Virus record (IMG/VR): IMGVR_UViG_3300031975_001527
Location: 1-47,274 of that record
DNA from: a virus
Length of the DNA: 47,274 nt
Strand: one strand, 5' to 3'
Shown here: positions 10,129 to 44,492 of the stretch, in pieces
Numbering within the stretch: the first letter of the stretch is position 1
Layout of the letters: every line of letters begins with the position of its first letter
Notes under the pieces: generated by a model
Seen by the model: the letters and a program-made list of their open reading frames with translations, nothing else
The model's database searches: none
Told to the model about the DNA's origin: nothing
Made by a program: the position numbers and the translations under genes

Positions 10129-13100
10129 ATGGCACCTTTTGATTCTGGATTACCAACAAAAATATCTCCATTAATAGATGGTCAAGTGCCTGATTTTATT
10201 CAGGCAGATCATCCTGTTTTTGTAGAGTTTCTTAAACAATATTATAAGTTCTTAGAATCTGCTGAGATTACTATCGACGGCACAGTTGATGATTTGTTAT
10301 TGGAGACATTTACAACAAGTTATGTGTCCTTGGATGGTACAAATGAGTCAGGATTGGACGGTGGAGATAGAGTTGTTTTAGAGACAGGTTCTGGCACCAC
10401 AGGAAAATTTGAAATTGGTGAAACCATCACTGGATCGACAAGTAAAGCAACCGCAACAGTTCTTGTTGACGCAGAGGGTAAAGCAGCTTCATGGACTGCT
10501 AGACTTTTCATTTCTGCGAACCAAAAGTTTATTGAAGGTGAAACAATAACTGGCGGAACATCTGGTGCGACCTCAACTATATTAACATATAGGGCAAACC
10601 CTGTACAGAATATTCAACAACTTTTAGAATATCAAAATACAGATAATACAGTTGATCATTTTTTAACAGCGTTTAGAGATTCGTTTTTGGACTCCATCCC
10701 TCTTGCTCTTGCAGATGGAGTATCAAAAAGAAAATTAATCAAATCAATTCGTGACTTGTACGCAGCAAAAGGAACTTCAGAGGGTCACAAGTTATTCTTT
10801 AGAATTTTATTGGGTCAGGAAGCAGAGATAGACTATCCATCGAAGTACATGATGAGAATAAGTGATGGTAACTGGTCCACTCCGACGATAATTAGATGCA
10901 CATCTGATTCCACTGGTGCCATACCGTCAGAGATGGCAGGCCAAACTGTAACTGGAGCATCATCTGGAACTAAAGCTCAAATTATAGGTGTGACCACCTT
11001 CAATCAAGGTACAGATTCCGTTGTTGAATTTTCGTTACGAGAGGATAGTATTGAGGGTTCTGGTTTTTCTATTTCAGAAACATTTACCGGACAAACAACA
11101 TCAACCGATATAATTCAACAGTTCACAGTGCAAGGTATTGTAACAGATGTAACCGTAAACGACGGCGGTATTCTTTACAGTGTCGGAGATGCAATAACCT
11201 TTGACACTCAAAAGGGTAATGGTCGGGCTGAGGCAAAAGTTAGTGAAATCAGTAGTGGTTCAATATCGGGAGTGCATATTGAGGAACGTGGTGAGAATTA
11301 TGCTATTGGAGACTCTTTAAAATTCACACCAGCATCAACTGATGTTTCTGTAGATGATGCGAGAGCATTTGTTTCTGTCGTTGGTGGTCGGTTATCATTA
11401 GAGGATTCAACAGCAATCACCCCAACTTTTTTCAATGTAGAAAATGAAACAAACTCACAGTTTGTCAATACAAAAATATTACTAAATGGAACGTCCATAG
11501 CTGACGCTGCTGTTGAACCGTATGCTGTTCAAGGGACTGATAGAAGATATAGTGATAGCAGACTTTATTACTATCCACTGTATGTCACTAAGGCAAGAGC
11601 AGAGGCAGCAAACACCTCAACTGGACTTGCTCACGCACACGTTTTTGAACAATATCCTGACATAGTTTTTTATATGCCCAGTGATGATCAGAATCATGCG
11701 AAGTCAACCTTCGACTCATCAAAGTATGATTTATTTGTGACAAGACAAAAAACAGTTGATGATGGGGATGAAATAGTTTTAGAGGATGATTTTAAACTTC
11801 TTCAAGAGGAAGAGTTATTATCTCTAGATTCTTATGGCACAGATACAGATGGTATCATTTTGGAGTCAGGGACTTTCACGGTTGCTGAATCAACAGAGAT
11901 TAATAGACTGTTTTTTGTTGATGGCGGCGGTGGTTACAAAAAATTACCAACGGTCACGGTGACTTCCTCCGCTGGTTCCGGTGCAGAAATGGTTGCAAAT
12001 ACAACCACCATTGGTGCTATCAAAGAGATTGAAGTTGTTGATAACGGATTCAAATATAACGCAGATGTTCCAGAGGCATCTGTTAACACAAACTTGATAT
12101 TGAAAGATGTTGATGCTACATTTAACTTTGGTAGTCGATTGACATCTCATACAGGAAATGTTGTTTCATACGACAATTCAGTTCATAAGTTAGTTACTAG
12201 TTCAACACCTACCAATAGATTGACAATGGAACAATCTGGTACTTTCAATGAAGCTATTAGATTAGAAAATACTGCGTTTGCAGGAATCGGTGAAGAACAG
12301 CATGGACCAGTTAATCAGAACTATAGTGTGCAAGATGAATCAGATGATGGTGTATTAATTGATAATCATAGTGAAAAAGATACAAGGATTACCTTAGAGA
12401 ATGAGCCAGGTTCTATAGTAATTGATGCTTTTGAAATTGGAAATTATGAACAAATTAGTTTAGAGCAAGACTTAGATTCTCCCGTAGATGTAGGAATTGA
12501 ACTTGAGGACAGTTTAGTTGTAAAGGCAGATGTATCTGGTAAGATTTTATTGAATTCTCATAGAAGAATAAAATTTGCACGGACTGAACAACTAAATGAA
12601 AGAGTGGATTTAGAGGATGCCACTGTAGGTAACAATGTTTTTGGCGAACAACAATCAGGTGGGCTTCTGTATAACTCTAGCATGGATGATGTTGGTGACC
12701 GTTTCGACCTTGAGGCTGATACTCCCGGCAGAGAGGGGAGAGGGTTTATTCAGTTTGAAACTGCCACTGAAAGTAGTTCGGGGTTAGGAAGAGAACCTAG
12801 ACCAATTTTTGATGGAACTGGTTTTAGTGAAGGCGATAGAGTAACATATGAAATTGATACTAGTATAGAATTTGGGAATAATACAGATTCCATCCTTTTG
12901 GAAACTTCTGAAAATCCGTTATTTAACTCGGGCAGTTTTCTCATACAAGAGGACACAGGTAACTCTATAGTATTAAATACTAGTGGCGGTATTGATAATG
13001 AACTAGATGTTGGAGATAAACTTTTACAACCTGTTTTAGATCGTTCCGAAGCCTCTAATCCTGGCCAATCAATAAAACATGTTAATACTCCAAACTCCAG

Positions 13101-15549
13101 ATTAATCGGTGAGGGATTAGATACTTTTGTAACAGAAATTTCCGATCTTGATAATTTAGGACCTGCTGAATCTGGTAAAAACTTTATCGTTTACGATGAA
13201 GTCATCTTTTCTGGTGATGAAGATGGATATGGTTATATAAGTTTAGATGGAACTAATAACCTTAGCGCAGATGCGGGAGACAGAGTATTAAGCGAGCAAG
13301 CTGGATTTAATATTCTTCTAGATGGAAATCCATCCGATCCAAGTTTTGAATCTGGTGACATACTTCTTACTGAAGATGACACAGGTGGTGAACAGATAAT
13401 TTTAAATGCCACTGATAATCGTGCTAGAGATGATGGTGATGAAATTGTTATGGAAGATGCCTTTAATGTTGTAGGTGATTCCATATCAGATGCGGCCGGT
13501 GGTATTGCAACAGTTCTTAATCAGGGTACAGCATCAGTAACGGCAAATATTGGAACGACAGCACCCAGACTTGGTAATTATATAAACACCGATAGTCTTG
13601 TCAGCGAGGACATCATAAGAATTCAAGATTCATATTTTTATCAAGCATTCTCTTATGAAGTTAAAGTTGGTTCTATTCTATCTGATTATATCAATGAGTT
13701 GAAAGCATCAGTTCATCCTGCTGGATTTATTCCTTTTGGTAAATTATCACTGTCATCACAGATATCTGTAAAGATAGGCACAACCGGAGAAAGCACTATT
13801 GACTTTACCGGAGACACAGATACGTTTAGTCCAGAATTTGCATCTCTCTTTGGTCTTGTATTTGGTGAGACTTTGCGTATGCATCAGGGCGAGGTAAGAG
13901 AAGGTGTTCTTTCTCCAGATGGTAGTAGCAGTTTATTTAACTTATTAGTACAAGAGAACGGAACTGCCATAGGTGACAAGCTTTTAGAAGAGACTGACGG
14001 CGATGCATTGTTGTTTGAAAGTGGTTTTGAGATTGCGGTGGAGAACTCACCACAACACAGTGACGGTGCTATCCTTTTGGATGCTGGTGTTGGTGGTTCG
14101 TTATTATTAGAAACAGCTTTAGGAGAAAATCTAAATCAAGATAGGTCTGTTTCTCATATCACCAAATTGTCAGTTAGGCCAGAGATCACTGCACCTAAAA
14201 CTGCATATGGTGCCCCGATTGCTTCTGGTGTACCAGCTGGTTCTTTATTCATAGCTCCCGGCGGCATACAACTGGAGGATGGATTGTCCGATGGACTTCC
14301 GGCCATCGAAAAAGATAATTTGGTGTTAGATGGTGTTGATAACAATAGCACTGGTGGTGGTGATAAAATACTTTTTGAAGAAGACTTCAATACGGTATCT
14401 GGTGTAAAAATCTCTGACTTGGATGGTTTGTCTATAAGTGACTTAGTTGAATTAGACACTGTAGGATTTGTTGAAAATGCTGGTTTAGACTCTGATGGTG
14501 ATAACATAGCACTTGATGGCACAGATAGCTCTGCATCTAACGCAGATGACAGCCTCTTATTGGACGGCGGTATCGGCGGCGCTGGTGCTGGTTCCAAGTT
14601 ACTTCTTGATGGTGCTGGGTTTAGAAATTTCAGTGATCCACCAGAGGGTGGAATAATATTTGAACAGAGCTCTGCATCTGAAGAATTAGTATTAGAGGAT
14701 TTCTTGCAACTTCTCATGGAAGATGGTGCTAACATAGATTTAGAGACGGGAACAGATACGGGTCTTTTAATTGGTGAAGCGATTGGTGTTGGAGACAATA
14801 GTGTTAATATAGTCATTGAACATGGTTTGATTGCTGGTGAGAAACTTATCACAGAAGGAAGTAAAATTGAACTTGAGGATGACACATTTGGTGGAACTAT
14901 TCCACCAGAGAACTTTGGTAATAAAGGTATAACACAGTTTACAAGACAAGCAGTTATAACCACTAGAGACAAAACTAATAGACTCGCACTACAAGATGAA
15001 TTTGAAATTAATTTAGGGATTGCATTAGAGGACAGTAGCGGAAGTATCAGATTAGATGGAACATCAGCTGTTCTTGACATTGAGGGGCAGATATTACTGG
15101 ATGGCACAGACTCTGCTAAAAGTGATGAGGGGTCTCTGTTATTATTAGACAGGACAGATGGTGGTGGATCAGATGCGGGAGATAATGTTCTTCTTGACAG
15201 CACAGGTGGACGTGATCTTGGTGACAAGTTGATTATGTTTGATACAGTTCGTAATTTTGTTGTTGGTAATGAGGGTGGTTTCTTTTTATTGGATGGGACA
15301 GATGGAACTGGCTCTAACGCTGGTGATGAGTTATTGTTAGAAACAAGTGATGATTTTGGGATAGGTGGAACACTTGAATTTATTAATCAAAATACGATTA
15401 ATTTGGCGAATGGTTTAGATGCAGAAAGTGGTGGTTTAGTATTGCCAGGGTCAGAAGCAGATACTGGTGAGGGTGAAGTTTTGGTAACAACCTTTGATAG
15501 CGCTATTGGTACGTTTGATTCAACACAAACAACCTTCGATGCTGCATAA
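10129..15549 (+). CDS. 7: giant baseplate wedge protein gp7-like with DGTD repeats
   Basis: Predicted gp7-type wedge protein of 1806 aa (T4 gp7 is 1032). The N-terminus, PTKISPLIDGQVPDFIQADH followed by FVEFLKQYYKFLE, and the helical block containing RKLIKSIRDLYAAKGTSEGHKLFF match the marine T4-like gp7 family, as does the position after gp6. Much of the rest is made of short acidic units of type LDGTDxxxSxAGDxILLE, densest in residues about 1040-1110 and 1400-1740. Two GETITGxTSxATxT units occur near residues 96 and 136. Acidic bias and lack of Cys suggest an extended beta-rich outer part. No ribosome site is seen; the ATG is two bases after the gp6 stop, so coupling is likely. Confidence 0.82.
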   Translation: MAPFDSGLPTKISPLIDGQVPDFIQADHPVFVEFLKQYYKFLESAEITIDGTVDDLLLETFTTSYVSLDGTNESGLDGGDRVVLETGSGTTGKFEIGETITGSTSKATATVLVDAEGKAASWTARLFISANQKFIEGETITGGTSGATSTILTYRANPVQNIQQLLEYQNTDNTVDHFLTAFRDSFLDSIPLALADGVSKRKLIKSIRDLYAAKGTSEGHKLFFRILLGQEAEIDYPSKYMMRISDGNWSTPTIIRCTSDSTGAIPSEMAGQTVTGASSGTKAQIIGVTTFNQGTDSVVEFSLREDSIEGSGFSISETFTGQTTSTDIIQQFTVQGIVTDVTVNDGGILYSVGDAITFDTQKGNGRAEAKVSEISSGSISGVHIEERGENYAIGDSLKFTPASTDVSVDDARAFVSVVGGRLSLEDSTAITPTFFNVENETNSQFVNTKILLNGTSIADAAVEPYAVQGTDRRYSDSRLYYYPLYVTKARAEAANTSTGLAHAHVFEQYPDIVFYMPSDDQNHAKSTFDSSKYDLFVTRQKTVDDGDEIVLEDDFKLLQEEELLSLDSYGTDTDGIILESGTFTVAESTEINRLFFVDGGGGYKKLPTVTVTSSAGSGAEMVANTTTIGAIKEIEVVDNGFKYNADVPEASVNTNLILKDVDATFNFGSRLTSHTGNVVSYDNSVHKLVTSSTPTNRLTMEQSGTFNEAIRLENTAFAGIGEEQHGPVNQNYSVQDESDDGVLIDNHSEKDTRITLENEPGSIVIDAFEIGNYEQISLEQDLDSPVDVGIELEDSLVVKADVSGKILLNSHRRIKFARTEQLNERVDLEDATVGNNVFGEQQSGGLLYNSSMDDVGDRFDLEADTPGREGRGFIQFETATESSSGLGREPRPIFDGTGFSEGDRVTYEIDTSIEFGNNTDSILLETSENPLFNSGSFLIQEDTGNSIVLNTSGGIDNELDVGDKLLQPVLDRSEASNPGQSIKHVNTPNSRLIGEGLDTFVTEISDLDNLGPAESGKNFIVYDEVIFSGDEDGYGYISLDGTNNLSADAGDRVLSEQAGFNILLDGNPSDPSFESGDILLTEDDTGGEQIILNATDNRARDDGDEIVMEDAFNVVGDSISDAAGGIATVLNQGTASVTANIGTTAPRLGNYINTDSLVSEDIIRIQDSYFYQAFSYEVKVGSILSDYINELKASVHPAGFIPFGKLSLSSQISVKIGTTGESTIDFTGDTDTFSPEFASLFGLVFGETLRMHQGEVREGVLSPDGSSSLFNLLVQENGTAIGDKLLEETDGDALLFESGFEIAVENSPQHSDGAILLDAGVGGSLLLETALGENLNQDRSVSHITKLSVRPEITAPKTAYGAPIASGVPAGSLFIAPGGIQLEDGLSDGLPAIEKDNLVLDGVDNNSTGGGDKILFEEDFNTVSGVKISDLDGLSISDLVELDTVGFVENAGLDSDGDNIALDGTDSSASNADDSLLLDGGIGGAGAGSKLLLDGAGFRNFSDPPEGGIIFEQSSASEELVLEDFLQLLMEDGANIDLETGTDTGLLIGEAIGVGDNSVNIVIEHGLIAGEKLITEGSKIELEDDTFGGTIPPENFGNKGITQFTRQAVITTRDKTNRLALQDEFEINLGIALEDSSGSIRLDGTSAVLDIEGQILLDGTDSAKSDEGSLLLLDRTDGGGSDAGDNVLLDSTGGRDLGDKLIMFDTVRNFVVGNEGGFFLLDGTDGTGSNAGDELLLETSDDFGIGGTLEFINQNTINLANGLDAESGGLVLPGSEADTGEGEVLVTTFDSAIGTFDSTQTTFDAA
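10330..10383 (+). repeat. DGTD-type peptide repeat (gp7, first copy)
   Basis: Encodes LDGTNESGLDGGDRVVLE, the N-most copy of the repeat in gp7. Confidence 0.7.
13243..13458 (+). repeat. DGTD-type peptide repeat cluster (gp7)
   Basis: Three consecutive units: LDGTNNLSADAGDRVLSE (13243-13296), LDGNPSDPSFESGDILL (from 13318) and LNATDNRARDDGDEIVMED (from about 13402). The DNA copies differ, so the repeats are old or selected at protein level. Confidence 0.75.
14326..14568 (+). repeat. DGTD-type peptide repeat cluster (gp7)
   Basis: LDGVDNNSTGGGDKILFEE (14326-14382) and LDGTDSSASNADDSLLLDG (14512-14568), separated by the related phrase KISDLDGLSISDL. Confidence 0.75.
15097..15342 (+). repeat. 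DGTD-type peptide repeat cluster (gp7 C-terminus)
   Basis: Units LDGTDSAKSDEGSLLLLD, LDRTDGGGSDAGDNVLLD and, from 15289, LDGTDGTGSNAGDELLLE. This is the densest array in the window. Confidence 0.8.
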
Positions 15550-17755: not shown

Positions 17756-20700
17756 ATGCCCCAAAAAACAAATTTAAATGTTGCCCCGTACTATGACGAT
17801 TTTAATGAATCTGATAATTTTGTGCGAACACTGTTTCGGCCAGGGTTTGCCATACAGGCGAGAGAGTTAACACAGCTCCAATCGGTTTTACAAAATCAAT
17901 TGGAGCAGGGATTTAGTCATATCTTCACAGATGGGACTATGATCATTCCTGGCCAAGTAACATATTCTGGAGGTAAAGACGCATTAAGATATGTTAAATT
18001 AGCATCAACAATTAGTGGAGAAACTATTGAGTTAGATCAGTTTGTTGACGCTGACAATCCTGTTATTGTCACAGGTAAAACTTCTGGTGTGCAGTTCATG
18101 GTGATCGACGTTGCAGCTGCAACATCAACTGACCCAGCAACTTTATTTGGTCATTATATTACAGGTAACCTTCAAGGTACAAGAGATTATAATCAAAATA
18201 CAGACAGAGATACCCTCCGTGGTGAAGTTCAACAACTTGATGCAGCAGGGTTCGATAGATTTGTTGTTGATGAGGAATTAACTGCAAACGTAGCAATTCA
18301 ACACGGAAGCACTGCTTTTGCAATTGGGGATGTGTGTCTTAAAACAGAAGCGACAGAGGACACAAGTGTTACAGATGGAAGAGTAACCGGACTTTCAACT
18401 CTTGCAAAAATTTCTGAAGGTATATATTTTACCAGAGGACATTTTGTAAAAGTAGATGATCAAATTATTGTTGTAGAAAAGTATAACTCAAAAAACATAA
18501 GCGTAAGAATTGGTTTACAGGTTAACGAAGAAGTTGTAACACCAGAGACAGATACCACTTTGTTAGATAATGCACAGGGGTCATCTAACTTTGCTGCGAA
18601 GGGTGCCCATAGGTTAAAAATATCTTTAACTCTTGTATCAAAAGCACTTGGTTCTACAGATGATGCTAACTTCTATGAAATCGTTAGAATTAAAGATGGT
18701 AAAGCTGAGAAGTTTGCAAGAACCACAGATTATTCAATTATTGAAGAGACACTTGCTCGTAGAACCTTTGATGAATCTGGAAACTACACTGTAAGACCAT
18801 TTACCTTCCAAATAAAAGAATCGGTAGACGTTAGTGTGGGTGCAGAGAATTTTGAAGGTGCATACACGGTTGGCCAAACTACGGACAAAGGTAATGTTGC
18901 ATCCGACGACTTACTAGCACTTCAAATATCTACAGGTAAAGCATATGTTAAAGGTTTTGAAATTGAAAAGATTGCTCCAACTGTTCTTGATATTACTAAG
19001 GCAAGAAGTTTCAATACTGTAAATGCTGGTGTCACTGCATTTGAGATTGGTAACTATGTAGCAATTACTAATCTACACAGCACCCCAGATATTACATTTA
19101 TTAGTGGTGAGTCAACAGCATTTAAAGAAATACAATTGTATGACACAGCAATCGCAACTAGAGGAAGTGCATCTGGCACAAAGATAGGTGTTGCTCGTGC
19201 AAGAACATATCAGCATCAGTCGGGAGTTGCAGGACAAACAGATGCAGTTTATCGTTTGTATCTTTTCGACATTAGACCATTCACTAGAATTACTTTATCC
19301 GATACTCCTAGTCCATCAATCACTTCAGTTGCTACTAATGGAGGTTCAAGAATAACTGGTAACACAAGTGGTGCAACAGGATTTGTGTTTGGTTCTGGAA
19401 CCACTGGAACAACTCTTATTCTAACTAACGTTGCCGGAACTTTTCAGGCGGGAGAAAAACTTAAACTGTCAAACTCAGCTGAGACAGATCAGTTAATAGA
19501 AAATTCAAGTAACGCAGATTTAACTGTTGATAGATTAGTAACGTTTACGTTTGATCAAGTCCGGTCTGTTTTCATGGAGGACCCAGACTCGGGTCAAGAC
19601 TTTACTGCTGACATAGCACTCACCTCAGTTCAGACCACGGCATCTTTTATTGTTCTTGATGGAACAGATGCTAATGCTTCAGACTCAGAGGATAACATTG
19701 TTACGGAACAGGAGGGTATTCCTGTTTCTCTAAACCCTGCAGCATCTGGTGGAACGGGATCAACTGTTAAACAGGCAAAACTAGAAGAGGCTGAGAAAAA
19801 CTTATCTTTGTTTAAGTTAGCAAAACGTCCAGTTAAGACCTTGTTGACTGCAACTAATAACGGAGTTAGTGATACCCAATTTACTATTCGTAAACAGTTT
19901 GTTGCAACCACAAACTCCTCTGGAGCTGTCACTGTTTCTGCTGGTGCAAATGAGACTTTTGTATCCCACTCTGAAACGGACTATACTATATCCATTCTTA
20001 CTGGTGGTACGGGCTCAGGAAAACAAGGTGACATAGTAAGTGCTTCAACAGGATTTTCTGGCGCTGGCTCTGCAACTCTGACAATCACCAACAATGCTGT
20101 TTTTGGAACTGGTGCTAAACTAAAAATAATGGCGACCCTACTGAAAACATCAGTTGTGCAAAAAACAAAGACCACAAAATTGATGAAACAGTTGAAGGTT
20201 GTTGCGGGAACAACAGATGCATTTGGAACTCGGCCTTCAGATAAAGTTATATCTCTGGGTAGGGCAGATGCGTTTCGACTTATGGCTGTTTTTGAAGGTG
20301 TCGATTCAAGCACTGATGCTGCCGCACCAACTATAAGTTTAACTGATGTTAATGGTACTTTTATTCGTGGTGAAAAAATTGAGGGCGGAACTTCTCAAGC
20401 AACTGCAAGAATTGTTAACACCAATACACCGTTAAGTTTGGTTTATACGAGTGGAAATAAAACTTTCGTTGTAGGAGAAGAAATTACTGCTGAAAGCTCT
20501 GGTGCAACTGGAACGATATCTGCTGTTACCATTGGTGACAAAAATATCACACCTAACTTCCTATTTGACTCTGGTCAACGAGATAACTTCTATGACATTT
20601 CTAGAATACATCGGCGGCCGGGTATCCCTGCCCCCGTTGGAAGACTTTTAGTCATCTATGATTATCTTGAGCATAGTTCGGGTGATGTTATAACCGTAGA

Positions 20701-23700
20701 CTCTTATTCAGACGTTGCTAATCAAATGGACTATGTTGATATTCCAACATACACTGCTACTAAAGTTGATCCAGATGCTCCAGCACCAACTGGTGAGTTT
20801 CCGTTGTATAACGTGTTCGACTTTAGACCGACTGTTGAAGATGCAGCAGGAACATCCACTGATGTTTCTTTGGTTGATGAAATTACAGGACACTCTTTAG
20901 ATTTCTTCCATCGTCAATATGATGGAACAGGTGCGTCTCCTAATAATTTCTTGAAACCAGGCTCTCTTGTTCAAGCAGATTATGAATATTATTTACCTAA
21001 GAGAGCAGTTCTTGATCTTGACAAAGAGGGATTTTTTAATCTAACTGAAGGTGAACCATCTGAAGCGCCCGCTCTCCCAGAGATGACAGACGGAGCGATG
21101 AAACTTGCTGAGTTATTCATACCGGCATATACTTTCAAGCCAACTGATGTTGTTCTTCGCAGAGAGAAGAACCAAAGATTTACCATGAAAGACATTGGTA
21201 AACTCGCAGACCGTATTGGTAATTTAGAATATTACACACACCTTTCTCTTCTGGAAAGAGATGCAGAGAGTTTTGAGATTACCGATGCAAACGGATTGAA
21301 CAGATTTAAATCTGGATTTATTGTTGATGCTTTCCAAGGCCATCGTCTTGGTGATGTGCAACACCCAGATTATAATTGCTCAATTGACCAAGAAAATAAT
21401 GAGTTACGTCCTAAAACTAAAAATAAAAATGTTACTCTCATTGAAAAGTTCTCTACAGATTCAGAAAGAGCAAACTCTGGATATCAAAAGACAGGAGACT
21501 TGGTAACCCTGCCTTATACAGAGGTTGTTGCTTCAGAACAAGTATACGCTACGAGACTTGAAAGAGTTACACCCGTGCTTCTTTCTCACTGGAATGGTAA
21601 AATTGAGTTAAGCCCTTCCGGCGATAACTGGTTTGAGGTAGAGATAGCACCAGACCTTATCATAAATCAAGAGGGTAACTTTGATACCGTCCTTGCAGCA
21701 AATAGAGATGCGATAGGAACAATTTGGAACGCATGGCAAACACAATGGTCAGGTGTTGTTCAATCATCATCCTCGCAATGGTGGGAAGGCAATTCATTAG
21801 TTGAAAGAACTACACAAACAGTTAGATCAGATCAACAACGAACTGGTGTTCAAACGGATGTGGTAGAAAAAATTGATTTAGAATCTATGGGAACAAGAGT
21901 TATATCTAGAGCAATGCTTCCTTTCTGTCGTGAGAACACGATTGAATTTACTGGAACAGACTTTTTACCTAACACACAACTTTATCCGTTCTTTGATCGT
22001 AAAGACGTTGCACAGTTTACAAAACCAGCCGAGGGATTTTCTACAAGTGATGCGAGTTTAATTTTTGGAGATGCACTAATCTCTAGTCCCTCTGGTAAAA
22101 TTTCTGGGACGTTCCAAATCCCTGATCCTAAAGTTGCGGGAAATCCTCGATTTAGAACTGGAGAGGTAAGCTTCCGTCTTACATCGAGTCCGACTAATAT
22201 TACATCAAAGGACCCCCAGACGGCAGCGGAGGCAATTTACCATGCTGTTGGTGTTCTTGAAACTGAACAAGAAACTATTCTTGCAACAAGAAACGCTGAA
22301 GTCGTTAGAAAAGACGTTGTTGAAAATACGGTTGTTTTCTCTAACGTGATTGACCAAAGGCAGATTGGAACAAGACAACCGCCTGTACCACCCTCATCTG
22401 ATGGAGATGGAGATGGTGATGGCGACGGTGGTGACGGTGATCCACTTGCACAAACTTTCATGGTTGATGATGTTGGAGGAATGTTTGTTACGAGTTGTGA
22501 TATTTTCTTCCAAGCAAGAGATGATATTTTACCAGTGACTTTGGAACTTAGGAATGTCATCAATGGATATCCTGGCCCAAAGATTATGCCTTTTGGACGG
22601 GTCGTTAAGGAACCATCAGAAATAACTTTGACAGAGGATGCAAAAACAGCCACTACGTTTACATTTAAATCTCCAGTTTATCTCCAACAAGGATTTGAAT
22701 ATTGTATCTGTCTTTTATCAAACTCGCCTGTATATAAGGTGTGGATTGCTCGCATGGGTGAGACTGAACTTCAGTCAACTTTGACAGCAACACAAACGGG
22801 TGGAACGGCGACGGCTGCAAGTAATCAGTTATTTGCTGAGAGAACTGTATCTGAACAACCCGCTCTTGGTGTTTTGTTCAAATCTCATAATAATAGGACT
22901 TGGGCTCCATCTTTGATGGAGGATTTAAAGTATACTTTGAACAGAGCTTCTTTCAATGCTTCCACTGGAAACTTCCCTGTGGTAAACCAAGTAAACCCTG
23001 TTAAACTACTTGAGAAAAATCCTCTTATTTTCCAAGACGGGAGTAATGTTGTTCAAGTTAAACACAGAGACCACCAGATGTATTCAACATCCAATAACGT
23101 TACACTTGCAAACGTTAAGTCTGGTGCGTCAACAACTCTTGCGTCAGCGATAACAAATGATGCAACGTCCATCACGTTATCCGATGGAACTGACTTTGAT
23201 AACACGAGTGGTAAATTCTCTAGAGATTCTAGTAACACATATTTCATAAAAATTGGTGATGAGATTATTACTTATCAAACAATCTCTGGTGCAGCGATTA
23301 CTAGTGCAACAAGAGGGACGAATGGAACCACCGCAGCTGCACATGCAGCAGGGGCAACAGTTGAATTATTCATGTTGCACAAAATTCCATTTACGGAACT
23401 TAATACGACACACACCTCTCTTGGTAATATTGGAATTGATGATTACACTATTACAATAACCACCTCTGCTGTGATTGATGGGACTGGTGTCACAAGAGCA
23501 CAAAATGGTGAAACAGAAGTAACAGCAACGGAAAATATTTTGTTTGATCTTGCACAATACTCAATTTCAAATATGACAGTTAGTGGGACGAATGTCGTGG
23601 CCACCAAACAAAATACCACTGGAACAAGTCCTAGTGGCTCTCAAACTTCATTTGTTAAAACGGCTGCCGCAAATGCACAAGTGATACCTTTGAATGAAAA

Positions 23701-24566: not shown

Positions 24567-26140
24567 TGCCAACAGTTACAGCATCAGTAGTAGGGACAGG
24601 AGACTCTTTAGAGACTTTTCGTCAACAGTTTAATAATCTTAGAACGGATGTTTCTGGATTATCATTTAGTTCCACTCTTATTTTTGAGGGATCAGTGGCA
24701 GATGATTTTGAGACAACTCTATCCGTGACAAACCCGACTGCTGATCGTACTATCACAATTCCTGATAAATCTGATACGATTGCACTGCTCGGTGATTTGG
24801 GAGATGTTGTTCTTCTAAATGGAACGGATAGTTCTGGTACAGATGCCGGTGATAATCTTGTTCTTGATGGTCCGGCAGTTGATGTGGGTGATCAAATTTT
24901 ATTTGAGGATGCTACGGGTGATCACTTAGAAAATCCAGCGGTTCGCAATGAGGTAGACATTCTTTTGGAAACTTCTACTTTTGCGAAAAAAGATTTTCTT
25001 TTAGATGAACGTGATAGCGACAGAATAGAATTTGAGAGTGCAACACAAGACCCTCTTATTGGTGGTCTTTTTGTTCCACCAGCTGGAGGTGGTCCACAGT
25101 TTACGATGCCGACTTCTGATGGTCTAGCAAACCAAATTCTAGGAACAGATGGTTCTGGTAACCTTTCTTTCATTAACCAATCTTCGGGACTGTCACTTGC
25201 CAATGATGGAAACAATAGGGTCATCACTGCAACAGGGGCTAACTCTGGTAACGGTGAGGCTAACCTTTTATTTGATGGGTCAACTCTTACAGTCACAGGA
25301 AATATCACCGTGCCTGATGATGGCGACATTGGTTCAGTCAGCGCAACAAATGCGATACAGATTTCTTCCGGTGGTATTGTAACCTTTGTAGATGATATTA
25401 AGATTAAGGATGGCGGTACAATTGGCGTTGCGTCAGCTGCCGATGCTATGACCATTTCGTCTGCTGGTATTGTTACCTTTAAGGATGATATCCTTATTAA
25501 GGATGCCGGGACAATTGGTTCTGCCTCTGACCCAGATGCGATTTCTATTGGTTCGGATGGTGATGTAACACTGACTCAAGATTTAGAGCTGCAACATGAT
25601 GGTGCAACAGTTGCCTTTGGCAGTAATGATGAAATTACAATAACGCATGTTCATAACTCTGGATTAACTATAACCAATACTGTAAACGGTACAGATGACA
25701 GTCCTGTTGTACTACAATTGAAATCAGAAGAAGATGCAATTGTTGCCGATGATGTTATTGCTTCTATTGAAATGGCCGCGGGTGATTCTGATGGGACAGA
25801 TGGTGCGACTGTTGCTGCTGGTATTCATGCAATTGCAGAGGGTACATTTTCTGCTAGTGCAAACGCAACAAAACTAGTATTTACAACTGGTGTCTCTGAG
25901 ACTGCTGCCGCCTCTGCTACTGCTAAGATGACATTAAGTTCAGCAGGGCTATTGACAATTGCTGATGATTTACTTATTAAGAATAGTGGGACTATTGGCA
26001 CCGCTGCTGATAGTGATCTTTTAACTTTAGGAAATGGTAATTTGACTGTCGCTGGTACAGTTACCGCTACAGCGGGTTCTACTTTGTTAATTAAGGACTC
26101 GGGTGGAAGTACTGTGAAGACTGTGAAGGGAATAAGTTAA
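24566..26140 (+). CDS. tail-fibre-like protein with beta repeats (524 aa)
   Basis: Fibre-type protein. It contains the phrase LIFEGSVADDFETTLSV then PTADRTITIPDKSDT near the N-terminus, one DGTD repeat (residues 84-102), and a phage fibre junction phrase (QILGTDGSGNLSFINQSSG). Three imperfect units of type DDIxIKDxGTIGxASxxDAMxIxSxGxVT follow in residues about 250-345. The C-terminal STLLIKDSGGSTVKTVKG mirrors the end of the 216-aa protein at 15584. Low charge and regular Gly/Ser spacing fit an elongated beta structure that would contact the host surface. Start and stop are both TAATG overlaps with neighbours. Confidence 0.7.
   Translation: MPTVTASVVGTGDSLETFRQQFNNLRTDVSGLSFSSTLIFEGSVADDFETTLSVTNPTADRTITIPDKSDTIALLGDLGDVVLLNGTDSSGTDAGDNLVLDGPAVDVGDQILFEDATGDHLENPAVRNEVDILLETSTFAKKDFLLDERDSDRIEFESATQDPLIGGLFVPPAGGGPQFTMPTSDGLANQILGTDGSGNLSFINQSSGLSLANDGNNRVITATGANSGNGEANLLFDGSTLTVTGNITVPDDGDIGSVSATNAIQISSGGIVTFVDDIKIKDGGTIGVASAADAMTISSAGIVTFKDDILIKDAGTIGSASDPDAISIGSDGDVTLTQDLELQHDGATVAFGSNDEITITHVHNSGLTITNTVNGTDDSPVVLQLKSEEDAIVADDVIASIEMAAGDSDGTDGATVAAGIHAIAEGTFSASANATKLVFTTGVSETAAASATAKMTLSSAGLLTIADDLLIKNSGTIGTAADSDLLTLGNGNLTVAGTVTATAGSTLLIKDSGGSTVKTVKGIS
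24815..24871 (+). repeat. DGTD-type peptide repeat (fibre protein)
   Basis: Encodes LNGTDSSGTDAGDNLVLDG, followed by the related phrases VDVGDQILFED and EVDILLETSTF. Confidence 0.7.
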
Positions 26141-28312: not shown

Positions 28313-28320
28313 GGAATTAT

Positions 28321-30502: not shown

Positions 30503-31796
30503 GTTGAAAGATTTAAAATGGTTCTGTCCTCAACCATTCACTAATTATGTTTTGTATAGAGACTTAGCGCCACTATCTTGTTGTGTATTAAAAGAGTGGC
30601 CACGAAATAAAATAAAACGAAAATACAAAACAAATGATCCTAGAAAATTACACAATGAAGCTGAATATGCAGATTTTAGAAAAGAGTTTTTAAACGGTGG
30701 TGGACCACTAACAAATAAACATTGTCAAGTATGCATCGAGCAAGAAAAGCATTCAGGCGAAAGTCACCGAAAAGTTTATCTTGAAAAGTTCATAGAGGAG
30801 CATGGTGAGTATAATCAGTATCTAGAAGATTTAGAGAACTACATTGACACAGACATGACAGAACCCCATATCTTAACTATGGAGTATGTTGCACCAAGTA
30901 ATTTTTGTAATCTAAGGTGTAATATGTGTGGGCCTGCAAACTCTTCATCCTTGGCAAAGGAAAATATAGATATTGGATTAACTAATCTGTTTCAGATGGA
31001 AAAATACAAAGATAATCCTTTGCAAAAAATAAAAGACAACGTAGAAAAATATGATGATATTCTTGTTAACTTGGCTGAATTAAAATTAGTAGGTGGAGAA
31101 ACGTTAGCAATAAAAGATAATTACGACATGATACAACGAACCATAGATTTGGGCGTAAGTAAAAACATGGTGTTGAAGATTACTACAAACGGCACTCTGA
31201 CTCCCAAGTTTGATGGTAAAGATATATTTCATTACATCCCATATTTTAGAGGATGCACTATGACAGTATCCATAGAATTTTGGGGCAAGAGAAACAATTA
31301 TCTAAGGTTTCCATCAAAATGGGATGTGATAATAAACAATGCTAAAAGATTTGCTGAATGTCCAAATACGAACGTAATGTTTGCAACCACAGTGAATGCA
31401 TTGAACATAGGATACATGCCTGAAATTTCATGTGGAGTTAAGGAGTTGATGAGTAAGTGTGATGAGCCATCAGTAAATTTTAAAGAAACTTTTTCAATTC
31501 CTAAATGGTCATGGGCTTCTGGAAGTTTAGTGTGGGGTGAGGGAAATGAATACGCAGTGACAGCTTTACCGTTGGACATTCGTGAGCAATACATGGAAAA
31601 ATATTTTGATTTCGGACCAAAGATAAAAGGAGATTATAGTCATTTTCAAAAGTTGTATGCGTATATGGAAGAGATGCCCTTTGATGAAAAATTACACAAA
31701 GAGATGATGACAAACGTTCAATTGAGAGATAAGCACAGAGGAACTTGTTTGGTTGATGTGTTTCCAGAGTGGGAGCCATACTATGAAAAACTTTGA
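30495..31796 (+). CDS. radical SAM protein with N-terminal twitch-like segment
   Basis: A 433-aa radical S-adenosylmethionine enzyme. The 4Fe-4S motif is CNLRCNMC (C138, C142, C145) in a typical APSNFCNLRCNMCG context, followed by VGGETLA and KITTNGTL strands of the radical SAM barrel. The N-terminal ~80 residues contain CPQPFTNYVL, a CC pair at 29-30 and CQVC at 77-80, suggesting an extra iron-sulphur 'twitch' domain. The reaction and substrate are unknown. Placed between a beta-hydroxylase-like oxygenase and an unknown protein, it probably works on the same substrate as its neighbours. Confidence 0.87.
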   Translation: MTKLKDLKWFCPQPFTNYVLYRDLAPLSCCVLKEWPRNKIKRKYKTNDPRKLHNEAEYADFRKEFLNGGGPLTNKHCQVCIEQEKHSGESHRKVYLEKFIEEHGEYNQYLEDLENYIDTDMTEPHILTMEYVAPSNFCNLRCNMCGPANSSSLAKENIDIGLTNLFQMEKYKDNPLQKIKDNVEKYDDILVNLAELKLVGGETLAIKDNYDMIQRTIDLGVSKNMVLKITTNGTLTPKFDGKDIFHYIPYFRGCTMTVSIEFWGKRNNYLRFPSKWDVIINNAKRFAECPNTNVMFATTVNALNIGYMPEISCGVKELMSKCDEPSVNFKETFSIPKWSWASGSLVWGEGNEYAVTALPLDIREQYMEKYFDFGPKIKGDYSHFQKLYAYMEEMPFDEKLHKEMMTNVQLRDKHRGTCLVDVFPEWEPYYEKL

Positions 31797-33114
31797 AGAA
31801 TTTAAATTGTTGTGGGAAACACAAAAATCGAATCGTGTGAGTGATGAACTTGATCATTTAATTTTTGTTGTCGCATACCCAGATAATTTAGAATGGAGTT
31901 TCATAATTGAAAAGCAAACTCAAACAACTTGCTTGCAAACCTCTGGTGGTTCCACTGGTGCGGGAACAGGACATAGACACGTTCTGTGTTATCAAAGTGA
32001 AGTTAACGATGTTCTAAGAGAGTGTGAGCAGACACACGCAATGATTACTTGTGTCGGGATGACATTTAATATGATTGTGCCGCAAACGTCTATAACTAGA
32101 TTTTGTAACTGGGCTGAGACTGATGAATACTGTAGGGCACACATTATATCAAGGCCTAATAAAAAAGCATATCTACATCATCAACACATAGAGTTGAATC
32201 TTGTCAAATGGAAAGAGCATGGCGCTCCAGATATATTTGAAAGATGGGAGAATTATGAAAGGTCACCAGAAAATTTTCATGATGATTATACCCCGCCATG
32301 GATTAAGGTTGACGAATTACCTTTGATTAAAAATTTTACTGAACAAGAAAGAAACATAAAAGGGTTCGCCTATCATATGGAGAATAGAACAGAAATTCAA
32401 GATCAGAACTGGAGAAAGATGGCCCATAAATCTTTTGGGTGGAGAGATCGTATCGACCAAAGTGATAGATATTTTGAGTTGCTTATGAATAGGATGACTG
32501 AAAAATTCTACGCAGAAAATACGGAGAACTTGGGTAAAATACCAGACGGAAAGTTTGACTTAATCTTTACTCCTACTGCTGGTTATAGTGGAGAGGTTTT
32601 TGCAGATAGATTAGATTTTGATGGTGACGTTGTATTTTATGATTACTGTGAGGAGAACATAGAAATAAAACAAAATATCGTTGAGATGAATATGAGTTTT
32701 GAAGAGCTTGAAATATATTCTAGATTTAGTGATCATGATATTGTGTTTACATCCAATATACCAAGACACTATGTTGTATCTGAAAAATTAAAAAAAAGAG
32801 TGGAGACATTTGGTAGCTTTGAGGAATGCAGAAAACTACAAAAAAATATGGTAGAAAATTATAATATAGAATATTGGATCATGGATATAATTAATCCAGA
32901 CTATGGAAAGATAATTAATAAAATCAAAGGTAAAAGAGTTTTCTTTGATCTAAGTAATATTTTTAGCTATCACACTAGTCATGTTTGTTATACCTTAACA
33001 GAGTTGGTTGAGAGTTTAGATTGTCTGATTGAAACATTAAGTAACAACACAGAATATTTTTTCATTAGAGGTAAAAAACCCACTAAACAGAGTATGCCGA
33101 ATGAGAAAAAGTGA
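31783..33114 (+). CDS. unknown protein (443 aa) of the enzyme cassette
   Basis: No family recognised. The N-terminal part is alpha/beta (LIFVVAYPDNLEWSFIIEK, then a Gly-rich GGSTGAGTGHRH loop). The region around residues 255-290 (FDLIFTPTAGYSGEVFADR, then VVFYDYCEENIE) looks like a nucleotide- or SAM-binding Rossmann segment. ATG 31783 is preferred to the in-frame ATG at 31753 because GGGAG lies at 31771-31775 and the overlap with the radical SAM gene drops to 14 bases. Given its place, it may be a transferase or a scaffold for the cassette. That is inference. Confidence 0.6.
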   Translation: MKNFEEFKLLWETQKSNRVSDELDHLIFVVAYPDNLEWSFIIEKQTQTTCLQTSGGSTGAGTGHRHVLCYQSEVNDVLRECEQTHAMITCVGMTFNMIVPQTSITRFCNWAETDEYCRAHIISRPNKKAYLHHQHIELNLVKWKEHGAPDIFERWENYERSPENFHDDYTPPWIKVDELPLIKNFTEQERNIKGFAYHMENRTEIQDQNWRKMAHKSFGWRDRIDQSDRYFELLMNRMTEKFYAENTENLGKIPDGKFDLIFTPTAGYSGEVFADRLDFDGDVVFYDYCEENIEIKQNIVEMNMSFEELEIYSRFSDHDIVFTSNIPRHYVVSEKLKKRVETFGSFEECRKLQKNMVENYNIEYWIMDIINPDYGKIINKIKGKRVFFDLSNIFSYHTSHVCYTLTELVESLDCLIETLSNNTEYFFIRGKKPTKQSMPNEKK

Positions 33115-33925
33115 TTGTACATTTACAAGACTAAATGAAGAATATAATGCTTTTGATTTTTATGAAGAGAAGTTAGAGGATAACTTTTTGGAATTTACGT
33201 TGGAAGAACTTGGTATGCCTTCAGCTGAGGAGTTATATGATAAAACACTAAAGATTACAGATGAGATTGGTGGAATAAGAGGTTGGAGAAAGGTTGATCT
33301 TGAGTCAGAAAAATATAGAGGGTTTAGTATTTGTATAAATGAAAAGGGGGATGACTATCTACAAAGTCCGTATGCCAGTCTTGGCCATCCAGAATTAAAT
33401 TGGACATATTCAAGAATGAATAATCCTAATCCGCCTTGGGAAACAGACAAAGATACTTACTATGATACATACGGTTTGTCTACGGTTCACCCGATAGTTA
33501 AAAAACATTATGATACATTTTTAGAGTGTGTTGACCTACCGCCCACGAGGTCAAGAGTGATGTGGGAGTATCCTAGACACGAGCAGGGGTGGCATGTAGA
33601 TGAAGTGTTGTGGTGTGCCATAAGATTTAATATACCATTAGTTACTGAGCCTTCATATGTTTTAGAGATTGATGGTACAGACGAATATGATAATTCTTTA
33701 ACATTAACTAAACATCTAGAGGTTGGTAAGGTTTACATGTGGAATACAAGAATAAAACATAGAGTTAGAGATATGGGTGGAGCAAAGAAACCAAGAGTTC
33801 ACATTGTGGCGGCGTTCATACCTTGGTTTGAGAAAGATAACAATGATTGGAAACCAAATAAATATTTTGGTATACAACCTTTAGATATGATAAAATCAAA
33901 AATGATTTTTCCTTATGCGCCATGA
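33101..33925 (+). CDS. 2OG-Fe(II) oxygenase-like protein
   Basis: A 274-aa predicted dioxygenase. The iron triad reads H165-V-D167 in EQGWHVDEVLW and H220 in MWNTRIKHRVRD, with Arg232 in KPRVHIVAAF placed as 2-oxoglutarate ligand. The layout resembles phage aspartyl/asparaginyl hydroxylase-like proteins, with a longer N-terminal region (about 140 residues). The gene overlaps its upstream neighbour by 14 bases and the downstream glycosyltransferase by four (ATGA). This is the fourth such oxygenase in the window. Confidence 0.8.
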   Translation: MRKSDCTFTRLNEEYNAFDFYEEKLEDNFLEFTLEELGMPSAEELYDKTLKITDEIGGIRGWRKVDLESEKYRGFSICINEKGDDYLQSPYASLGHPELNWTYSRMNNPNPPWETDKDTYYDTYGLSTVHPIVKKHYDTFLECVDLPPTRSRVMWEYPRHEQGWHVDEVLWCAIRFNIPLVTEPSYVLEIDGTDEYDNSLTLTKHLEVGKVYMWNTRIKHRVRDMGGAKKPRVHIVAAFIPWFEKDNNDWKPNKYFGIQPLDMIKSKMIFPYAP

Positions 33926-34623
33926 AAATATTTGCAGTCAGAATAGGAGAGAAGTACGGTCCAGAATACGAAACGTATTTAGAGAAAAAACTTTCTAAAT
34001 ATGAGATTGTGTGGATAAGAGAGCCATATGACTCTAGGGTTGAATTGCAATGGAATAAGATGTGGGCAATGCAACAAGACATTGATGAACCTATTTGTGT
34101 GATGGATATTGATGTTTTATTAGTTAACGATTATGAAAAGATATTTGAATATCCTGTTGAACGTGGACAATTTGTTGCAATGCCTGGATGGTGGAGAGAT
34201 ACAAAAAAAGAAGGATACAAGATTAACGGTGGATTTTTTAAATATTATCCAAAAGATTGTAAATATATCTATGAAAAATTTATGTCTGATGTTCATGGGT
34301 GGCAAAGATATTATATCGACAACGGGACAACAAATGGTCCAGTAAACGGTGAACAATATTTTGTTGAAGATTCTGTGAACGAAAGACTTGAGCTAATAAC
34401 GTTACCTGATGCGTGGTTTACTCGTTGGGTCACTGGAACTGACATAAATTATGGAAAGAGCATGTTTAGATGGAATGTTCAATTGACAAGAAAATATAGA
34501 AACCTTACTGGTAATGAATATGTTTGTTTGGGTGATGAGTTTCATCCAGATATAAAATTCGTTCATTTTACTCATAGAATGAATAAACCTCATGAGTGGG
34601 AGCATTATGCAGATAACGTTTGA
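33922..34623 (+). CDS. glycosyltransferase-like protein (GT-A type)
   Basis: A 233-aa protein similar in plan to the enzyme at 28321: N-terminal strand IFAVRIGEKYGPEY, ICVMDIDVLLVND with DxD at residues 62-64, a WW segment (MPGWWRDTK) and a C-terminal KFVHFTHRMNKP. The shared phrase 'xGxKYGxEY' near both N-termini suggests the two are distant paralogues. Predicted to use a nucleotide sugar; the acceptor is unknown. The start overlaps the preceding stop (ATGA), and the stop lies within the start region of the GNAT gene. Confidence 0.68.
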   Translation: MKIFAVRIGEKYGPEYETYLEKKLSKYEIVWIREPYDSRVELQWNKMWAMQQDIDEPICVMDIDVLLVNDYEKIFEYPVERGQFVAMPGWWRDTKKEGYKINGGFFKYYPKDCKYIYEKFMSDVHGWQRYYIDNGTTNGPVNGEQYFVEDSVNERLELITLPDAWFTRWVTGTDINYGKSMFRWNVQLTRKYRNLTGNEYVCLGDEFHPDIKFVHFTHRMNKPHEWEHYADNV

Positions 34624-35941: not shown

Positions 35942-36943
35942 ATGGCCGTCAATTCAATATTTCATACCAGCAATAGAACTGCGATTGCTACAGAACAAAA
36001 CTTATATAGGGATTTGGTTGCAGAGGCTATTCAAATATATGGTCATGACGTTCATTATGTTGACAGAACTTTGACTGCTGAAGATACAGTTTTTGGTGAA
36101 GACGCTCTTTCTAAATTTAGAAACTCTGCAAAGATAGAGATGTACGTTGAAAATGCAGAGGGTGGGTATCAGGGCGAAAGAGAACTCATGAATAAGTTTG
36201 GGTTGCAAGACCTAAGTGAGTTAACCTTTGTTGTTGCAAAACATAGATTTCAAGAATTAACAAAACAGTTTACCATCGAAGATGGCACAGATACAACTGG
36301 CGGTTCTATTCTGTTGGAGGAGGGAACTATAGATCAGAGTGGTAATGCAATCGTGTTTGAAGGGACAGATTTTTATCTTCTCAATGAAACTGATGCGACA
36401 GATTCAGATAGGCCTTTAGAGGGGGATTTAATTTTTCATCCTGTTCTCAAAAAACTATTTGAGGTTAATTTTGTTGACCATGATGAACCGTTCCACCAAT
36501 TAGACAATAATCCAGTATTTAAATTACAATGTCGCACATTTGATTATAGTTCTGAAGCACTTGATACTGGCATCACTGATATTGATGCGATTGAAGATGC
36601 ATTGTCTGTGGACACTATGTTCTTTCAGTTTACTTTGGAACAATCAAGTGCGGTCAATGAACAAATTAGAATACATGATACAGCCACCACTAGAGGTCTA
36701 CTAAAAGATGAAACGGATAATGATAATATTATTGGTGAGGACGACTCAACTTCTGTTGGTGAAAGTCTACTTCTAGAGACAGGAGAGTTCTTGATACAAG
36801 AAGACTATATAGTTGGTACAGGTGGAGCAAACACAGGTAGTCTTGATAACACAGCTCAAAATGAGTTATTTGATGATCTTGATGATGATGTGTTAGACTT
36901 CACAGAAAGTAATCCGTTTGGTGATGCAGGGAGTAAAGGTTAA
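35942..36943 (+). CDS. 14: neck protein gp14, with DGTD-related segments
   Basis: Neck protein gp14, 333 aa, longer than T4 gp14 (256). The N-terminal 110 residues carry the family pattern (AEAIQIYGHDVHYVDRTLT, then FGEDALSKFRNSAKIEMY and FVVAKHRFQEL). The extra length comes largely from acidic segments related to the DGTD repeat: EDGTDTTGGSILLEEG and FEGTDFYLLNETDATDSD near 110-155, and GESLLLETGEFLIQED near 278. The stop overlaps the gp15 start (TAATG). Confidence 0.87.
   Translation: MAVNSIFHTSNRTAIATEQNLYRDLVAEAIQIYGHDVHYVDRTLTAEDTVFGEDALSKFRNSAKIEMYVENAEGGYQGERELMNKFGLQDLSELTFVVAKHRFQELTKQFTIEDGTDTTGGSILLEEGTIDQSGNAIVFEGTDFYLLNETDATDSDRPLEGDLIFHPVLKKLFEVNFVDHDEPFHQLDNNPVFKLQCRTFDYSSEALDTGITDIDAIEDALSVDTMFFQFTLEQSSAVNEQIRIHDTATTRGLLKDETDNDNIIGEDDSTSVGESLLLETGEFLIQEDYIVGTGGANTGSLDNTAQNELFDDLDDDVLDFTESNPFGDAGSKG
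36276..36410 (+). repeat. DGTD-related segments in gp14
   Basis: Encodes EDGTDTTGGSILLEEG and FEGTDFYLLNETDATDSD, looser versions of the repeat seen in gp7 and gp18. Confidence 0.5.
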
Positions 36944-41906: not shown

Positions 41907-41908
41907 AT

Positions 41909-42209: not shown

Positions 42210-42216
42210 GTTATTT

Positions 42217-42224: not shown

Positions 42225-42265
42225 AGAATCGGAGCATATAAAAACACGTTTAGGATTTCAATTTT

Positions 42266-42273: not shown

Positions 42274-42320
42274 TCTGTAATAACAATAATAATGCTCTTG
42301 GAAAATAAAGGAGTACAAAA

Positions 42321-44492
42321 ATGGGTTTCTTAGTATCGCCAGGTGTACAGGTAAGAGAGATTGACCTTACAAATATTGTTCCTGCTGTTCAAACCAACAT
42401 TGGTGCGATTGCAGGGCCATTTGCAAAGGGTCCAGTGGCATCTGTAACTGCCATTAGTTCTGAAGAGGAACTAGTTCAAGTATTTGGTAAGCCAAATGCT
42501 GATAACTTTGAATATTTTTTCACTGCTGCAAATTTCTTGCAGTATTCTAACGCACTTAGAGTTGTCAGATGTGAGTCTGGTGTTTTAAACGCTGCGTCTA
42601 ATTCAGGTCTTCTTATTAGAGATACAGATCATTACTCTGGTTCTTTTAGGGACGGCCAGGGTAGTGTTGGGCCTTTCGCCGCAAGAACTGCCGGTACACA
42701 TGGTAACTCATTGAAAGTTTCTATTTGTGCAACAGCAACTGCATTTTCACAAAACATCACAGGTGCAAACCAAGTTAACGGTGCAGCATCGAGTGGTGCA
42801 ACGTCTGTTACAGTTGATGACGTTGATCTTGCAGACAATGTAATCAATGTTGGAGATATTGTTTCTTTCTTCACATCAAGTGGATTTGACACATTTGCAT
42901 CAGGTCATGAGGGAATTGAGTACGAAGTTACTGCTCGTGATACAGCAAATAATACGATTACAATTCGTGAATTGGACAACCCGAATGGAACAGGCTTGGT
43001 TAATTCCCTTGCCGATAATTCTTTCATTCGTCGTCGTTGGAAATTCTATGATTTATTCGCCGATGCGCCGGGAACATCACAGTGGTCAACTGATAACGAA
43101 AGAGGCACAAATGACGAGCTTCATATCGTTGTTTACGATAGCACTGGTGATTTATCTGGATTTGCTGAAGGTGTTGCTGGTCAAAGAACTTTGTCAGTTT
43201 TAGAAACATATGACGGTTTGTCAAAGAACAAAAACGCAAAAACTCCACAAGGTGGAACGAACTACTATCCAGATGTTCTCTATCAGCAGTCTGCTTTCAT
43301 TTACTGGATGGATCATCTAGCTTCTGGTACAAACTGGGGTTTAGACCTTGAATTGTCCAACAATGTTACTCTTAACGGAACTGACGCAAATGGTTCTGAT
43401 GAGGGTGATTTCATTATCTTAGATGGCACAGACGGCTCTGCAACGAATGCTGGAGACAACGTTATCTTTGATAACACAGAGAGCGACGGTAGAGGTTCTG
43501 GAGTTTATGCCGCTGTTGACACGCCGACATACGATGCACTTACAGGTGGAACAGACGATTATGCTGTTACTCTTGGTGAGAAGAGGTCTGCGTATGATCT
43601 GTTCAAGAACGCTGAACTTCATGATATTAACTTTGTTCTTGGTGGCCCTTCAGTTACAGTTACAGGTAGTTCTTTCGGAACCGCCGGTGACGAATTCGAC
43701 ACACACGGTACAATGTTAACTGATCTTGTGGAACTTCGTAAAGACTGCGTTGCATTCATCTCTCCTGCTCGTCAGGCAGTTGTTAATGTTCAAAGTGAAG
43801 TTACACAAACAACAAACGTTAAAGACTCCTTTGACACACTACCTTCATCGTCTTATGTGGTTTATGACAGTGGGTACAAATACATGTATGACAAATACAA
43901 CGATGTATTCCGTTTTGTCCCTCTCAATGGTGATATTGCTGGTCTGTGTGCTAACACCGATAGAGTTGCTGACCCGTGGTTCTCGCCAGGTGGTTACAAC
44001 CGTGGTAATGTTCGTGGAGCAATTAAACTTGCGTATAACCCACAGCAAGCAAACAGAGACATTCTCTATCAGGCAAGAATTAATCCAGTTGTGGATTTCC
44101 CTGGCCAGGGTGTGGTTCTGTTCGGTGATAAAACTGCTCTTACAAAACCAAGCGCCTTTGATCGTATCAACGTGCGTAGATTGTTCTTGGTTCTGGAAAA
44201 AGCAATTGCTACCGCTGCTAAGTTCCAACTCTTTGAGTTCAACGATGAGTTTACACGGGCACAGTTCCGTAACTTGGTTGAGCCTTTCTTGAGAGATGTT
44301 CAAGGAAGAAGAGGTATCACAGACTTTGTGGTGGTTGCCGACGGCACAAACAATACTGGTGAGATTATAGATAGAAACGAGTTTGTCGCAGATATCTATA
44401 TTAAACCGGCTCGATCAATTAACTTCATTACTCTTAACTTTGTTGCGGTTCGCACAGGTGTTGAGTTCTCTGAAGTCATTGGTAGATTTTAA
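42321..44492 (+). CDS. 18: tail sheath protein gp18 with inserted DGTD repeats
   Basis: Contractile tail sheath subunit, 723 aa (T4 gp18: 659). The N-terminus (VSPGVQVREIDLTNIVPAVQ, GAIAGPFAKGPV) and C-terminus (FRNLVEPFLRDVQGRRGITD, then VADIYIKPARSINFITLNF) are textbook sheath. Between the conserved inner-core segments sits an outer domain. There, residues 351-385 consist of two tandem acidic units (LNGTDANGSDEGDFIILDG and a second copy ending in AGDNVIFDN), the same unit as in gp7. The insert is placed where sheath proteins vary and face outward. The ribosome site is AAAGGAG. Confidence 0.94.
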   Translation: MGFLVSPGVQVREIDLTNIVPAVQTNIGAIAGPFAKGPVASVTAISSEEELVQVFGKPNADNFEYFFTAANFLQYSNALRVVRCESGVLNAASNSGLLIRDTDHYSGSFRDGQGSVGPFAARTAGTHGNSLKVSICATATAFSQNITGANQVNGAASSGATSVTVDDVDLADNVINVGDIVSFFTSSGFDTFASGHEGIEYEVTARDTANNTITIRELDNPNGTGLVNSLADNSFIRRRWKFYDLFADAPGTSQWSTDNERGTNDELHIVVYDSTGDLSGFAEGVAGQRTLSVLETYDGLSKNKNAKTPQGGTNYYPDVLYQQSAFIYWMDHLASGTNWGLDLELSNNVTLNGTDANGSDEGDFIILDGTDGSATNAGDNVIFDNTESDGRGSGVYAAVDTPTYDALTGGTDDYAVTLGEKRSAYDLFKNAELHDINFVLGGPSVTVTGSSFGTAGDEFDTHGTMLTDLVELRKDCVAFISPARQAVVNVQSEVTQTTNVKDSFDTLPSSSYVVYDSGYKYMYDKYNDVFRFVPLNGDIAGLCANTDRVADPWFSPGGYNRGNVRGAIKLAYNPQQANRDILYQARINPVVDFPGQGVVLFGDKTALTKPSAFDRINVRRLFLVLEKAIATAAKFQLFEFNDEFTRAQFRNLVEPFLRDVQGRRGITDFVVVADGTNNTGEIIDRNEFVADIYIKPARSINFITLNFVAVRTGVEFSEVIGRF
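43371..43475 (+). repeat. tandem DGTD repeat inside tail sheath
   Basis: Two back-to-back units, LNGTDANGSDEGDFII and LDGTDGSATNAGDNVIF, in frame within gp18 (residues 351-385). Confidence 0.8.

Follow-up and report, generated by a model that had tools for sequence, protein, structure and literature searches.

Gene Content of the Analysed Region

The window, i.e., the whole analysed stretch of 47,274 bases, is an uncultured viral record carrying T4-like tail genes. The genes gp5, gp6, gp7, gp8, gp13, gp14, gp15, gp17, gp18, gp19 and gp20 were found together with those for a DUF4815 protein and fibre-like proteins; the names gp15, gp17, gp19 and gp20 were taken from gene order compared to HTVC008M, with no family-library search behind them. 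Among isolates, the tail sheath protein gp18 came closest to that of Methylophilales phage Melnitz (56%), followed by that of Pelagibacter phage HTVC008M (53%), and the window virus was therefore assigned to the pelagimyophage type. Between the fibre genes and gp13/gp14 a block of non-structural genes was observed (27725-34623), by eye methyltransferase-, glycosyltransferase- and radical-SAM-like. A pelagimyophage host recognition cluster with similar placement is described in PMC7029224. The gp7 family (10129-15549 in the window) bears the label "head closure Hc2" in PHROG 3465, as does the RefSeq record of HTVC008M, which is apparently a misannotation.

A Recurrent 19-Residue Unit and Its Carriers

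Several of these proteins share a unit of 19 residues with the consensus [ILV]-L-[DN]-G-T-D-x-[SG]-S-[ST]-[DN]-A-G-[DS]-x-φ-φ-φ-[ED], in which G4, T5, D6 and G13 are near-invariant. A hydrophobic segment is followed by an acidic loop of 11 residues and a second hydrophobic segment with D/E at its end; 4 or 5 conserved acidic positions lie in or beside the loop. In tandem, the period is 16 amino acids. For detection a 19-position HMM trained on units from other IMG/VR loci was employed with a cut-off of 6 bits. Its seeds did not include the window, but L167 and L199, whose gp18 is identical to that of the window, supplied one gp18 unit. At this cut-off 10 units were found in the window, 7 in gp7, 2 in gp18 and 1 in a fibre-like protein. 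The peptide described in the first-pass annotation was present at every place where it had been noted there, and its occurrence clearly exceeded that in shuffled sequence: the same HMM and cut-off yielded 0.0 units per shuffle of the window proteins (100 shuffles) and 0 units in the reversed proteins. gp7, the gp18 insert and all units located below are on the plus strand.

The main carrier is the baseplate wedge protein gp7 (10129..15549, 1806 aa, Pfam Baseplate_wedge 2.5e-9). Its seven units are SLDGTNESGLDGGDRVVLE (10327..10383, 13.0 bits), SLDGTNNLSADAGDRVLSE (13240..13296, 14.0 bits), the weak VLDGVDNNSTGGGDKILFE (14323..14379, only 8.0 bits), ALDGTDSSASNADDSLLLD (14509..14565, 10.8 bits; the block at this site is missing from the relative L163), LLDGTDSAKSDEGSLLLLD (15094..15150, 11.0 bits) in tandem at 48 nt with LLDRTDGGGSDAGDNVLLD (15142..15198, 15.8 bits), and LLDGTDGTGSNAGDELLLE (15286..15342, 27.2 bits). 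The gp7 region bearing them is rich in LLLE-like motifs, i.e., a hydrophobic triplet plus acid (32 versus 7.5 ± 2.5 in shuffled sequence). Further peptides recur in this protein. Another dispersed peptide, FxxGExIxGxTSxATAxV, has two copies in gp7 (10408, 10528) and two in the DUF4815 protein (20360, 20465), and the gp7 C-terminus (about 15490-15546) is a TFDSxxGTFDSxxTTFD repeat with which gp7 relatives end likewise. A segment [FL]T[LM]EQSxxxNExIR[IL] is common to gp7 (12220) and gp14 (36629) and may explain the match of gp7 to a gp14 PHROG.

In the sheath gene gp18 (42321-44492) an insert of about 52 amino acids, missing in most homologues, lies between TNWG and VYAAV (43350..43505). It holds two tandem units, TLNGTDANGSDEGDFIILD (43368..43424, 21.9 bits) and, 48 nt later, ILDGTDGSATNAGDNVIFD (43416..43472, 35.6 bits). 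Most gp18 homologues run straight from TNWG into a YTAV-like segment without the two-unit block. In the alignment with T4 gp18, the insert directly precedes residue 339, towards the end of domain II. According to PMC3004832, T4 gp18 domain II comprises residues 88-97 and 189-345 and the protease-resistant fragment residues 83-365, so that by alignment the insert position falls inside the protease-resistant outer fragment.

A fibre-like protein (24566-26140) carries one strong unit close to its N-terminus (LLNGTDSSGTDAGDNLVLD, 24812..24868, 30.5 bits). The copies that the first-pass annotation had placed in the DUF4815 protein and in gp14 exist as peptides, but are degenerate and stay below the 6-bit cut-off. 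For the DUF4815 virion protein (17756-24337) this is VLDGTDANASDSEDNIVTE (19652..19708); canonical units occupy this site, one hypervariable loop, in at least 8 homologues. In gp14 two sites vary for unit presence among relatives. Site 1 (36275..36334) holds the loose, short-looped form IEDGTDTTGGSILLEEGTID (IEDGTDTTGGSILLEEGT at 36275), which in relatives is followed or adjoined by a canonical unit; site 2 (36698..36745) holds the shortened form LLKDETDNDNIIGEDD, where relatives carry LLLDGTDGTGSNAGDNVIGEDD.

Distribution of the Unit Among Phages

A DNA pattern for the core only (DGTD-x5-AGDN) was scanned without flanks, and the unit could thus be defined without circularity. At least 119 stretches in viral contigs matched; the bacterial and archaeal genomes scanned (257 Gb) gave 38. 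Position -1 was hydrophobic in 99% of the viral matches listed versus 25% of the bacterial/archaeal core matches, and position +13 in 100% versus 17%. In the viral core matches the flanks, which were no part of the pattern, showed hydrophobic and acidic residues in a constant order, whereas the bacterial/archaeal flanks were unremarkable.

The HMM identified 155 unit-bearing proteins in 15 clusters (127 loci plus the window), nearly all of them products of virion genes: gp7, gp14, gp18 and the DUF4815 protein, plus several proteins encoded next to virion genes that are fibre-like or without annotation. T4-like virion genes were present in 126 of the 127 loci. By carrier, gp7 contributed 336 of about 450 units and gp18 followed with 53, a share inflated by the collection of about half of the loci via gp18; the pattern-collected loci were free of gene bias. 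In six long uncultured records the units lay within or adjoining virion-module genes. The complete HTVC008M genome contains three units, all in one frame of 1016 amino acids, which is gp7, versus 12 units each in the partial records G006 and G011. The same HMM search gave no units in Melnitz, Mosig, three cyanophages, DLP_6, phiM12, vB_OspM_OC and T4. As Melnitz and Mosig are relatives by gp18, the unit is dispensable in the lineage. Three long pattern-collected contigs contained no units by profile, and their pattern matches are probably due to chance. In conclusion, the unit is a property of uncultured T4-like phages of marine origin, of the same type as Pelagibacter phage HTVC008M, and one homologous module in the unrelated virion proteins gp7, gp14, gp18, DUF4815 and fibres, as proposed in the first-pass annotation, is supported.

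Sequence searches in Pfam, NCBIfam and PDB gave no clear relative of the unit and none with a metal- or glycan-binding function such as the first-pass annotation had suggested; the best PDB sequence profile match had an E-value of 0.6 over 10 residues. The gp7 array of L138 (3876-4739) matched the Pfam AIDA stalk model PF16168 with 21.8 bits (E 2e-4, gathering cut-off 27); no match to this model was obtained in the window array. Using tblastn with the consensus or a repeat array, no matches were found in phage records, though the HMM finds units in HTVC008M. Probably the BLAST low-complexity filter hides the units, and these blanks carry no evidential weight. No description of the unit was found in the accessible open-access literature, including the available text of the pelagimyophage and Melnitz papers.

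Structure Prediction for the Unit

The consensus fits a strand-loop-strand element with the acidic loop between two hydrophobic segments. The small beta-turn units suggested in the first-pass annotation did not emerge from structure prediction. With AlphaFold2, the gp7 array remained without a predicted structure (pLDDT about 31, pTM 0.13, alignment of 13 sequences), and confidence for the gp18 insert was low (pLDDT 44-50). The outer and middle domains of gp18 were modelled well, in a form similar to T4 gp18 and further sheaths; the structure-search matches of this model were tail sheaths and uninformative on the insert. Given the low confidence for array and insert, fold, metal binding and exposure of the unit are putative.

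The very low pLDDT values would agree with disordered acidic spacers, i.e., flexible, highly charged linkers that would keep parts at a distance or repel other surfaces, and in which composition and short sticky LLLE segments are conserved in place of a fold. We consider this doubtful, since low pLDDT from shallow alignments is weak evidence of disorder, and the near-invariant G4, T5, D6 and G13 together with the strictly hydrophobic flanks exceed the needs of a spacer.

Gain, Loss and Selection

The gp18 insert was found in 30 of 97 homologues. On a tree made without the insert block, and from an alignment leaving out gp18 references with a stop codon, 4 presence/absence changes were counted, at least 3 of them forced by well-supported branches. 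Likewise, gp7 genes with 94-96% protein identity differ by in-frame blocks of 45, 51 and 93 amino acids that carry whole units. The 51-residue block of L139 contains two tandem units with 21 identical bases common to both, 48 nt apart, likely a 48-bp tandem duplication. In L168, most of this block has a counterpart with 85% DNA identity, so that an old block with loss in other places is just as plausible. For gp7 length versus unit number, just five gp7 genes were counted as complete.

The module had been proposed to move or be gained. Gain and loss as a whole unit is borne out by the indels in gp18, gp14 and gp7; recent movement from gene to gene within one genome is not. Recent copying of this kind was rejected, as over all loci the DNA identity was 0.587 for units carried by separate genes of the same contig versus 0.588 for units from different phages in different proteins.

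The DNA copies are indeed diverged, as first noted: at identical residues, codon identity among the window units was 0.38 compared to 0.42 expected from codon usage. The dN/dS ratio was about 0.31 in the gp18 insert versus 0.14 in the rest of gp18 (29 non-independent pairs). With codons randomised and dN/dS of about 0.31, selection acts on the peptide, in line with the earlier claim of retention by selection. The unit peptide is kept by purifying selection, less strictly than the sheath core.

Selection at the peptide level with randomised DNA, and the same peptide across many unrelated proteins of one virion, would also be expected from a docking code read by one common partner (phage adhesin, assembly chaperone or host protein), which would thereby be attached to wedge, neck, sheath and fibres alike. 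This appears unlikely, given that copy number varies as widely as between complete HTVC008M and the partial records G006 and G011, and that a partner gene was not identified. Near-neutral, functionless insertions tolerated while spreading by slippage and recombination would account for the presence/absence polymorphism, the recent-looking 48-bp tandem duplicate and the weaker constraint on the gp18 insert than on remaining gp18, but are improbable, because the peptide was kept with codons randomised (dN/dS 0.31) and the units are confined to virion-module proteins.

Comparison With Known Modules and Repeats

According to PMC9230969, Ig-like domains are promiscuous in virion proteins of tailed phages, including added sheath domains, with a proposed role in adhesion or stability. 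Like these, the unit is optional and probably lies in outer parts of unrelated virion proteins including the sheath, off the tube-contacting core. It was found present or absent in gp7, gp14, gp18, the DUF4815 protein and fibre-like proteins, the behaviour of an Ig-like type of module. Ig-like domains are compact beta-sandwiches of known fold with about 80-100 amino acids, whereas the unit has 19 and no predicted fold, and the Ig-type Pfam models gave no match in unit arrays. We rate the unit as a miniature promiscuous virion module that has its nearest known parallel in the Ig-like domains by distribution, yet stands outside their family.

According to PMC6949934, crAss-like phages carry tandem repeats of the BACON domain, a presumed carbohydrate-binding module. 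The unit likewise forms tandem repeats in a phage protein, but is short and spread over many proteins, unlike that full domain. With the haemolysin-type RTX calcium-binding nonapeptides (GGxGxDxUx) it shares a tandem arrangement in which turns rich in Gly and Asp precede aliphatic strands; its period is 16 instead of 9, its consensus lacks GGxGxD, and RTX Pfam models gave no match to unit arrays at E-values up to 10. The repeats of curli CsgA are strand-loop-strand with a conserved Gln/Asn ladder, and the unit resembles them in a putative strand-loop-strand repeat but is without the ladder. Curli secretion homologues are encoded by pelagimyophages according to PMC7029224; no link between curli and the unit was found.

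In T4, gp18 forms a helical array and gp14 a ring, and a third carrier, gp7, is a monomer (PMC3004832). With carriers so different, the unit would be expected to function independently of any particular oligomeric state. The trimeric repeats of fibre shafts (triple beta-spiral) are obligate trimers, and units also occur in gp7 with its monomeric T4 counterpart.

A Putative Accessory Module of the Virion Surface

Tentatively, and with somewhat less than even confidence, we favour a homologous 19-residue family, near-confined to marine T4-like virion proteins, that is a folded, hairpin-like accessory module on the outer tail and neck. The units occupy variable stretches of the wedge gp7, the neck gp14, the sheath gp18, the DUF4815 protein and fibre-like proteins, and are gained and lost as whole in-frame blocks, at least one of them probably through a 48-bp tandem duplication. 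Each unit may fold into a small hairpin-like element of the strand-loop-strand kind, to which its 4 or 5 conserved acidic positions perhaps lend stability through cations, and may show an acidic patch on the outer tail and neck. As an accessory module it could provide weak surface contacts or cohesion between tail parts. The unit most likely is a promiscuous accessory surface module, like phage Ig-like domains but far smaller, with a putative function. We regard it as rather improbable that the wedge, neck, sheath and fibre copies form a virion-wide recognition code, binding each other or one shared partner for tail assembly or decoration; if this were true, marine T4-like phages would assemble or decorate their tails via a common 19-residue tag.

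A small accessory module would suggest that the gain and loss of parts in virion proteins extends from entire Ig-like domains to very small units. The question is testable, as HTVC008M is a cultured isolate with three gp7 units. The T4-like phages that infect SAR11-type ocean bacteria are widespread, but to our knowledge none of their tail structures has been solved. An unclassified module that wedge, neck, sheath and fibres have in common offers one concrete target; structure and binding of the unit would tell how such virions are decorated.
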